From: Nitrososphaerota archaeon
Lineage (GTDB): Archaea; Thermoproteota; Nitrososphaeria; Nitrososphaerales; UBA57
DNA: 64,000 nucleotides
Direction of reading: 5' to 3'
Assembly: GCA_024860875.1 (NCBI GenBank)
Contig: JACPSZ010000017.1
Coordinates: 1 to 64,000 of the forward strand
Numbering within the stretch: the first letter of the stretch is position 1; each line of letters begins with the position of its first letter. Below the pieces are notes generated by a model, which worked only from the letters and a program-made list of their open reading frames with translations, ran no database searches and was not told where the DNA came from. Both the position numbers and the translations under genes were made by a program. This document shows positions 49,111 through 51,484 of this stretch, in pieces.

Positions 49111-50889
49111 TCATTTCACGGTTACAGACTTTGCTAGATGCCTCGGATAGTCAGGATCCAAGGCTCTTTCAACAGCAGCATAGTAAGCTAGAATCTGCAG
49201 AGGAATTACCTCTATTATAGGGAAGAATGCAGGATCAACAGAAGGAATGCTGATTATCTCATCGTAAAGTTCGTTGTCCTTATCACTGACAGCTATTACC
49301 CTAGCACCTCTTGCCTTCATCTCTGAAATGTTACTAAGAGTTTCACTATAAGTTTCGTCGCTAGGATTTATTGCTATTACTGGAGTACCTGCATCAACCA
49401 GTGCCAGTGTCCCATGCTTAAGCTCTCCAGCTGCAAGTCCCTCTGCATGAGTGTACGACAACTCTTTCATCTTCAAAGCTCCCTCAAGAGCTATGGGAAA
49501 GTGCAATCCTCTACCTATGAAGTAAAAGTCTGCAGCAAGTTTGTGCTTCTCTGCAATCTCCTTGATCCTTTCTCCTTGATTCAGTACAATTTCAACGTAC
49601 CTGCCAAGATCATTCAATTGTTCCCTTTTGTCATCAAGCCCAGCAAGCCTGAACGCAATATCGTAAATTATTGCTAATTGAGAAGTAAAACTCTTTGTCG
49701 CTGCTACACCAATTTCAGGGCCGCAGTTCAAAGGTAGAGAAACCTTGCTCTCCCTGGTGAGCGAAGAGCCTACCGTATTGACGAGCGATACTATTTTGGC
49801 TCCCTTTGCTGCAGCCTTCTTCACAGCCTCGAGCACGTCAGCAGTCTCGCCGCTCTGCGATATAGCTATGACAAGCGTATTCTCATCAATAAGATCAATT
49901 TCATGATCAATCTCACTTGAAATAAAGACTTGTGCATGTATCTTAGCAAGTTTTGCCAGCAAGTATCTCATTAAAATTCCAGCGTGGAAGCTCGTCCCCG
50001 AAGCCGTAATCCTGACGTTTTCCGCATTCCTTATCGCTTCACAGAATTCTACTATCTTAACTTCATCTTGATCCAGGGCAGCGTTTATCGTATTTGCCTG
50101 CTCGCTTATCTCCTTCAGCGTATAATGGGCAAATTCCTTCTTTGAAATGTCGCTCGCCTCCCAAGCTACCTGCGTAGAAACTACTGGGACAGGTTCTCCA
50201 TCAAAGGTGAATATCTGCACCTTGCTAGGAGTAATAGAAGCTATTTCATAGTCCTTGAGGAAGGCAACCTTGTCCGTATAGGAAATGAAAGAAACTATGT
50301 CGCTTGCTATGAAATTTTCTCCTTTACCTAAACCAACTACCAGAGGGGCGTCTTTCCTTGCTCCAAGGACTAATTCTGGTTTATCATCAAACAGTGCAAG
50401 TGTTGCAAAAGTTCCCTTGAGCTGTTTTACGGCTGACTGCAGAGCCTTCAGAGGACTCTTTTCTATTCTGTAATATTTCTCGATAAGATGTGCAATGACT
50501 TCAGTATCAGTTTCCGATGCAAACCTGTGCCCCTCATTTTTTAGTTTAGAAGAAAGCTCCTGATAGTTTTCGATTATACCATTATGTACTACTGCTATCT
50601 TGGTGTCGCAGGAAACGTGAGGGTGGGCATTGGTTTGAGTTACACCGCCGTGTGTAGCCCATCTTGTATGTGCTATGCCAGTAGTTCCTTTCTTAGTCCT
50701 TATGCTGACTCTGCTCGCAATATCATCAATCCTCCCAGCATCTTTTAGAATCTGAATCGACTTATCGTGAATGATTCCAAAACCTGCAGAATCATAGCCT
50801 CTATATTCCATCTTCTTCAAGGACTGGAGGAGAACCGGCGCTGCGTCCTTATTGCCGGTGTAGCCTATTATACCGCACATCTCCTGCAA
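49111..50889 (-). CDS. glmS: Glutamine-fructose-6-phosphate aminotransferase (isomerizing)
   Basis: MCGIIGYTGNKDAAPVLLQSLKKMEYRGYDSAG; ASGTSFHAG; ISQSGETADVLEA; KELSYTHAEGLAAGELKHG. Confidence 0.96.
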   Translation of the reverse strand: MQEMCGIIGYTGNKDAAPVLLQSLKKMEYRGYDSAGFGIIHDKSIQILKDAGRIDDIASRVSIRTKKGTTGIAHTRWATHGGVTQTNAHPHVSCDTKIAVVHNGIIENYQELSSKLKNEGHRFASETDTEVIAHLIEKYYRIEKSPLKALQSAVKQLKGTFATLALFDDKPELVLGARKDAPLVVGLGKGENFIASDIVSFISYTDKVAFLKDYEIASITPSKVQIFTFDGEPVPVVSTQVAWEASDISKKEFAHYTLKEISEQANTINAALDQDEVKIVEFCEAIRNAENVRITASGTSFHAGILMRYLLAKLAKIHAQVFISSEIDHEIDLIDENTLVIAISQSGETADVLEAVKKAAAKGAKIVSLVNTVGSSLTRESKVSLPLNCGPEIGVAATKSFTSQLAIIYDIAFRLAGLDDKREQLNDLGRYVEIVLNQGERIKEIAEKHKLAADFYFIGRGLHFPIALEGALKMKELSYTHAEGLAAGELKHGTLALVDAGTPVIAINPSDETYSETLSNISEMKARGARVIAVSDKDNELYDEIISIPSVDPAFFPIIEVIPLQILAYYAAVERALDPDYPRHLAKSVTVK

Positions 50890-51136
50890 CGAACATAAGG
50901 TGCTTTAAAAGAACCACAGAATCTGCATCCAGAAGCACTGTATAAAACCACATAGTGGTCCTTGCATCATTAATGGCAATAAATCAGATACCATTATGAA
51001 AAATTATATAGTGGTCAAACGATAATTAATTCAAGATGGGTAGGTTGACTTGCCCAACATGCCCTCCCCCCCTTTTCTTCAAATAATGATTATGGCGTGC
51101 GGGCCCCGGTGGGACTACATAACCTGTGGGTGCGAA

Positions 51137-51460
51137 GAGCCTATCTCAAAAAGCGTTATTTTAGTCCGATTTAGTCCATTTGACCATGGATGCATGCTGT
51201 AAGAGGATAATCGTCCTTCTCTGTCAGAGTGGACAATCGTCACCTCGAAGCCTAGCCAAACTGGTCGAGAAGACGGGTTTGGCCAGATCAAGCGTGATGA
51301 TGCGCCTGAAACATCTTGAAGGGCAGTCTCTTGTGGTCAAGGAAGAGATTCTGCAGGGAGCGGTAGGGAGGCCAAAGATGCTCTACAAGCCCACGCCCAA
51401 ACTACTGGAACAGAAGATTCAGACTAAATCGGACTAAATTCCTAATTTTGAGATAGGCTC
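51137..51460. repeat. Inverted repeat pair bracketing the HTH gene
   Basis: Left GAGCCTATCTCAAAA(51137-51151) and TTTAGTCCGATTTAGTC(51160-51176); right GACTAAATCGGACTAAA(51422-51438) and TTTTGAGATAGGCTC(51446-51460) are their reverse complements. Confidence 0.85.
51180..51437 (+). CDS. Small winged-HTH transcriptional regulator
   Basis: SPRSLAKLVEKTGLARSSVMMRLKHLEGQSLVVKEEILQGAVGRPKMLYKPT. Confidence 0.8.
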   Translation: MTMDACCKRIIVLLCQSGQSSPRSLAKLVEKTGLARSSVMMRLKHLEGQSLVVKEEILQGAVGRPKMLYKPTPKLLEQKIQTKSD

Positions 51461-51484
51461 GAATCGCTGTCATGGCTTTCTTGC

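Follow-up and report, generated by a model that had tools for sequence, protein, structure and literature searches.

Transposase-less cassettes are usually regarded either as gene-less MITEs or as carriers of genes useful to the host. Mobile insertion cassettes (MICs) have inverted repeats, a target duplication and a passenger gene but no transposase gene, and they can be mobilized in trans by a cognate IS (PMC3913671, PMC3129680). The passengers named for MIC231 are an endopeptidase and a fosfomycin resistance gene (PMC3913671). MITEs have been reported from Sulfolobus and haloarchaea (PMC10969869). InsA, a small DNA-binding protein of IS1, acts as a repressor of its own promoter and binds, or competes for, both IS1 ends (PMC12428005).

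Here, we analyzed a 324-bp unit at positions 51137-51460 of a 64-kb window (throughout, the whole stretch of DNA under analysis, 64,000 nucleotides). By the definition of PMC3913671, this unit is a mobile insertion cassette for whose ends (type A, below) no partner IS was found. We consider it highly likely that the unit is a transposase-less cassette moved in trans, and that its passenger is a self-regulating, end-binding winged-helix (wHTH) protein. We found no such cassette in the open-access literature; in the survey of thaumarchaeal mobile elements PMC6563490, the words "MITE" and "non-autonomous" are absent and the IS section describes no such cassette.

The original prediction, made from the window alone, described a small HTH gene bracketed by two blocks of exact inverted repeats, and this anatomy holds (Table 1). 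The outer arms are identical at 15/15 positions and the inner arms (TTTAGTCCGATTTAGTCC, 51160-51176 and 51422-51438) at 17/17. Among inverted repeats with arms <500 bp apart, these two are the longest in the window, where about 0.02 (15-bp) and 0.001 (17-bp) such pairs are expected by chance. The inner block extends to 18 bp, with 17/18 positions matching, and the direct repeat noted in its left copy is real, TTTAGTCC recurring with a 10-bp period. The final codons of the gene do lie inside the right inner arm (ACT AAA TCG GAC TAA, encoding T K S D and stop). For the 85-aa open reading frame proposed at 51180-51437, the bracketing by the arms stands, but the start is most likely ATG 51186 (83 aa) rather than TTG 51180, because MDACC... 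is the start conserved in relatives. A regulator is indeed the sole cargo: the wHTH gene is the only protein-coding gene supported within the 324 bp, and the inverted repeats bracket it alone, with no transposase gene inside the cassette.

Table 1. Features of the cassette and its immediate flanks, in window coordinates
Feature	Position	Strand	Remarks
Left target-site duplication GAA	51134-51136	.	Direct repeat with 51461-51463
Left terminal inverted repeat GAGCCTATCTCAAAA, end type A	51137-51151	+	Exact 15-bp arm
TATA-like TTATTTTA	51156-51163	+	Overlaps inner repeat; probable leaderless-mRNA promoter, inferred from sequence
Left inner repeat TTTAGTCC-GA-TTTAGTCC	51160-51177	+	Probable wHTH site; 18/18 conserved between copies
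83-aa winged-helix gene (MDACCKRI...QTKSD*)	51186-51437	+	ATG 51186; dN/dS, wHTH model
Right inner repeat, inverse of the left one	51421-51438	-	Encodes the last four residues and the stop codon
Right terminal inverted repeat	51446-51460	-	Inverse copy of 51137-51151
Right target-site duplication GAA	51461-51463	.	Matches 51134-51136

Outside the cassette, two 31-bp repeats (AAAACCACATAGTGGTCC...) at 50944-50974 and 51000-51030, 56 bp apart, lie upstream of a glmS-like gene (49111-50889); each has a (C/T)ATAGTGGTC core, and they may be regulatory sites. Genes resembling those of archaeal ribosomal proteins, identified by eye, are also found near the cassette; these genes, together with the archaeal MAGs that contain the close relatives (below), mark the window as archaeal.

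We searched for the whole 324-bp unit in the genome from which the window comes (G000; 1.67 Mb in 25 contigs, 92% complete) and detected two further full-length copies at unrelated loci, C6:35091-35413 and C3:2120-2441. They share 81% identity with the window copy and 97% with one another; both terminate in GAACCTATCTCAAAA, both carry a frameshifted gene, and similarity among the G000 copies stops at the outer arms. Target-site duplications of 3 bp flank the window copy (GAA) and the C6 copy (TTA), and the flanks of the C3 copy, which lies at the stop codon of a pterin-4a-carbinolamine dehydratase gene, contain no clean target duplication. The C6 cassette splits an alpha/beta-hydrolase gene (L009 2311-3150, PF22316 N-terminal domain); when the cassette and one TTA are removed, the locus reads as a single 314-aa frame and a C-terminal Abhydrolase_3 match is restored. 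Three cassettes whose ends are related to these (GAACCTATTTCGAAAC) are present in a second genome, G412; the two with readable ends have the duplications CCT and TCT. Across G000 and G412, a 3-bp duplication is present in 4/5 copies with readable type A ends. We detected no cassette copy in G001, a genome of the same genus as G000. Three copies in G000, with target duplications and an insertion into a gene, identify the outer arms as transposon ends. Mobility is shown by the copy number, the target duplications and the interrupted hydrolase gene, in line with one of the alternatives initially offered for this locus, a tiny mobile cassette.

The predicted structure of the 83-aa protein is a wHTH (pLDDT 83), with a C-terminal tail, encoded by the right inner repeat, that is predicted to be disordered. 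Pairwise dN/dS values for intact copies are 0.18/2.2 and 0.22/1.8 (about 0.08 to 0.12, with dS saturated), and a ratio this low (about 0.1) indicates that the wHTH gene is real and under strong purifying selection. The protein matches NCBIfam NF040939 (E 4e-7), and it scores 30 bits against the Lrs14 family, below the curated NCBIfam cut-off of 90; all of its family matches fall far under the family cut-offs. Foldseek neighbors of the predicted fold have TM scores of about 0.7 and about 15 to 25% identity, among them stand-alone archaeal wHTH regulators (Lrs14, Sta1 and PadR-MarR-like) and the pNOB8 centromere-binding protein (PDB 4rs8). A profile search of viral contigs detected no relatives of the protein, plasmids yielded nothing beyond generic wHTH matches, and defense and phage families gave only marginal HTH matches, such as Csa3. 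Related wHTH domains are also present in two larger reading frames, L054 1474-1752 (G408:C64; 38% identity to the cassette protein) and L055 1135-1794 (G344:C198). With LAGLIDADG-like segments (e.g., GGLIQGEG) near these domains, the arrangement recalls that of free-standing homing endonucleases, and the reading frames have no endonuclease match in Pfam; they may represent another mobile-element context for the cassette wHTH domain.

We sought relatives of the cassette in about 400 genomes each at the class level and the order level, most of them draft MAGs in which several copies lie at contig edges. Relatives were detected in about ten genomes, the weakest matches not being cassettes; the close relatives come from archaeal MAGs, of which one carries the name Thaumarchaeota. 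When the relatives are aligned, the inner repeats and the gene are common to them and the outer ends are not. Type A ends (GARCCTATYTC) have a 3-bp duplication, type B (GGCTTAGTCCCA) a 9-bp duplication (GAGGATATC), type C (GGTAGTGTCCCAG) an 8-bp duplication (AGAAATTC), type D (GGTGCTCCCCC, read from two contigs, C43 and C9) an 8-bp duplication (AAAAATTA), type E (GGTGTCCCTCGACA) an 8-bp duplication with a 3-nt offset on the left, and type F (CAGTCAATCAAAAAGTGG) a 5-bp duplication (GATTA). One genome, G258, harbors C, D and F cassettes together. Because types B to E all start with GG and have duplications of 8 to 9 bp, they may have diverged within a single IS superfamily, while A, B to E, and F are clearly different; we therefore use a conservative count of three unrelated end types. 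Judged by these end sequences, ends from at least three IS superfamilies have been joined to the core (site, wHTH gene, site). How many times the ends were switched is uncertain, since trees built from an 83-aa gene are weak. Among the relatives, the core was never found without outer ends.

Two of the end types, F and C, are common to a cassette and a transposase-encoding IS of the same cell, in both cases in G258. The F ends also bound a DDE_Tnp_1 IS (G258:C6) whose transposase gene is frameshifted and, by tblastn, has ISH3-family transposases as its best annotated relatives. The C-type ends lie about 10 to 25 bp past a transposase-like C-terminus at two G258 contig edges, and the 37-residue tail of this transposase yielded no family name. 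Homology between cassette and IS is confined to the terminal repeat (in F, and at the right end of C), and the readable partner-IS sequence contains no inner repeats. For type A, we searched with end patterns at ≤3 mismatches and checked every PF01609 locus for matching ends; no transposase with such ends was detected in G000 (92% complete) or G412. We rejected IS1 as the mobilizer of the types with 8- to 9-bp duplications: PF03400 is absent from six cassette-bearing genomes other than G000.

At ≤1 mismatch, the inner site has 6 matches in G000, all at cassette ends, and 0 in G001. The only other G000 match has 3 mismatches, and a reversed-pattern control also gives one match; no convincing site was detected at G000 host promoters outside the cassettes. 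In viral contigs, three exact matches occur on unrelated contigs without a cassette, which is about the chance level for an 18-mer in such a collection. Across the site search, the exceptions to complete pairs are partial copies, one lone end in G258 and 3-mismatch matches at chance level. The lone end is an inner repeat (TTTAGTCTGATTTAGTCC) beside a remnant (GGTGCTATTGGAG) in L141 around 1500 (G258:C32:74839); it represents the decayed end of a cassette or, failing that, the sole site lying outside one. The inner sites match at 36/36 positions in copies that are 76% identical over the gene region, and the inner repeats are intact in the frameshifted C6 and C3 copies. The four right-site codons (ACT AAA TCG GAC) are identical in most end types. 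Given that synonymous sites elsewhere are saturated and that the encoded tail is predicted to be disordered, we infer that this stretch is constrained as DNA.

The F-type relative, with a 39% identical protein, has an altered repeat (GTCTATTTTTGTCT and AGACAAAAATAGAC) in which the 10-bp half-site period is retained and the last codons are again covered. This joint divergence of protein and repeat, in one divergent member, is the best sign available that the protein reads the repeat. We take the inner repeats to be element-specific sites that the wHTH protein probably binds. The other alternative initially offered, operators of the regulator, is supported in that the presumed sites are element-specific, show stronger conservation than the gene, and have changed along with the protein in this divergent relative; the operator and mobile-cassette alternatives are therefore both supported at once. 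The F-type protein (L045 1366-1731, G258:C42) also has a cysteine-containing C-terminal extension (CIHRDGGKCVKSPNPCEMMRCPI) that is absent in the other types and may form a metal site.

The TATA-like element is centered about 26 bp upstream of the ATG, which we take to be the usual archaeal promoter layout for a leaderless message; scans for bacterial promoters and terminators are uninformative for an archaeon. We propose that the outer 15-bp inverted repeats would serve as substrates for an IS transposase supplied in trans, and that the wHTH protein would bind, at each end, to the half-sites that lie in tandem in the inner repeat. Since the left site overlaps the TATA region, protein bound there should block this region and silence its own promoter. 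With the inverse right site also occupied, the protein would sit beside both transposon ends of every copy. In this way the regulator could mark and hold the two ends of all cassette copies in a cell, whether these are intact or decayed. The most likely effect would be that its own expression is limited and that the ends are controlled (paired or masked) during transposition, with the core (site, gene, site) as the evolving unit. Autorepression seems quite probable to us, and for some direct effect of the protein on the ends, be it restraint, pairing or protection, we see roughly even chances. A more ambitious version, which we put forward tentatively and think rather unlikely, is a selfish site-regulator-site module whose own end-binding protein pairs or protects the ends of all copies in trans and which swaps outer ends between unrelated transposon lineages.

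The explanation that competes best with ours is that the cassette is an ordinary MIC with an autoregulated wHTH gene as passenger, the right site having no role in transposition. That site would then have arisen from inverted repeats lengthened by recombination, or it would serve only autorepression by DNA looping. MICs carrying passenger genes are known (PMC3913671), and in intact or near-intact core types the two sites are about 259 to 264 bp apart, center to center, or ~25 helical turns, as looping would favor; however, this phasing argument is weak because gene length nearly fixes the spacing. The right site has also survived both the exchange of outer ends and, in some copies, the frameshifting of the gene, although autoregulation of a dead gene needs no such site. 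We regard this plain passenger as a real possibility, somewhat short of even, and our confidence in it overlaps with that in the explanation we prefer because the two share their first half, a cassette with an autoregulated gene.

An unlikely alternative is a nested element, in which a mobile unit with the inner inverted repeats as its own ends inserted into miniature elements belonging to several IS families. A conserved core with constant inner repeats inside variable outer ends is what such nesting would produce, but complete site pairs are always enclosed by outer ends, the sequence between outer and inner repeats shows no apparent target duplication, and the partner IS (F, and the right end of C) are homologous to the cassette in the terminal repeat only. 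Also quite unlikely, to a slightly greater degree, is that the wHTH protein is an end-binding domain derived from a lost transposase, acting as an InsA-like transposition repressor. The layout matches that of InsA, known to repress its own promoter and to compete for the two IS1 ends (PMC12428005), but PF03400 is missing from the six genomes noted above, the F partner IS has no inner repeats, and the fold resembles stand-alone archaeal wHTH regulators. Finally, a static host regulator locus with looping operators, its other copies being ancient duplications, is very improbable: exact operators that overlap the promoter region and a conserved protein would suit it, but it is contradicted by the empty-site reconstruction at the C6 hydrolase, and the target duplications, the split gene, identity ending at the outer repeats, absence from G001 and the lack of a host promoter with a convincing site all count against it.

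The mobile cassette with an end-binding regulator, our preferred explanation, adds a passenger-carrying cassette family to Thaumarchaeota, one whose 260-bp core is found with the ends of several transposon families. Its single gene appears to serve the element itself and to be maintained by selection. Should the protein act on the ends, the movement of a non-autonomous element would be under that element's own control, whichever transposase it borrowed. Compared with MIC231-type MICs and with IS that have passenger genes (transporter IS), the cassette is alike in terminal repeats, target duplication, passenger gene and the lack of a transposase gene; it differs in having as passenger a regulator whose own presumed site lies within each end, in that one core occurs with ends of several IS superfamilies, and in being archaeal and 0.32 kb long. 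It shares with MITEs a size of a few hundred base pairs, terminal repeats, non-autonomy and multiple copies, but it carries a protein gene under purifying selection, whereas a MITE has no coding capacity. The Lrs14, Sta1 and PadR-MarR-like regulators and the pNOB8 protein (PDB 4rs8) have the same wHTH fold, with similarity far below family cut-offs. Like InsA, the passenger is a small DNA-binding protein, and repression of its own promoter and binding at both ends, demonstrated for InsA, are proposed here for the wHTH protein. However, InsA is the N-terminal part of a transposase and binds the terminal repeats themselves, whereas the wHTH protein shows no relation to a transposase and its presumed sites lie inside the terminal repeats; the cassette protein resembles InsA in its proposed behavior, not by descent.
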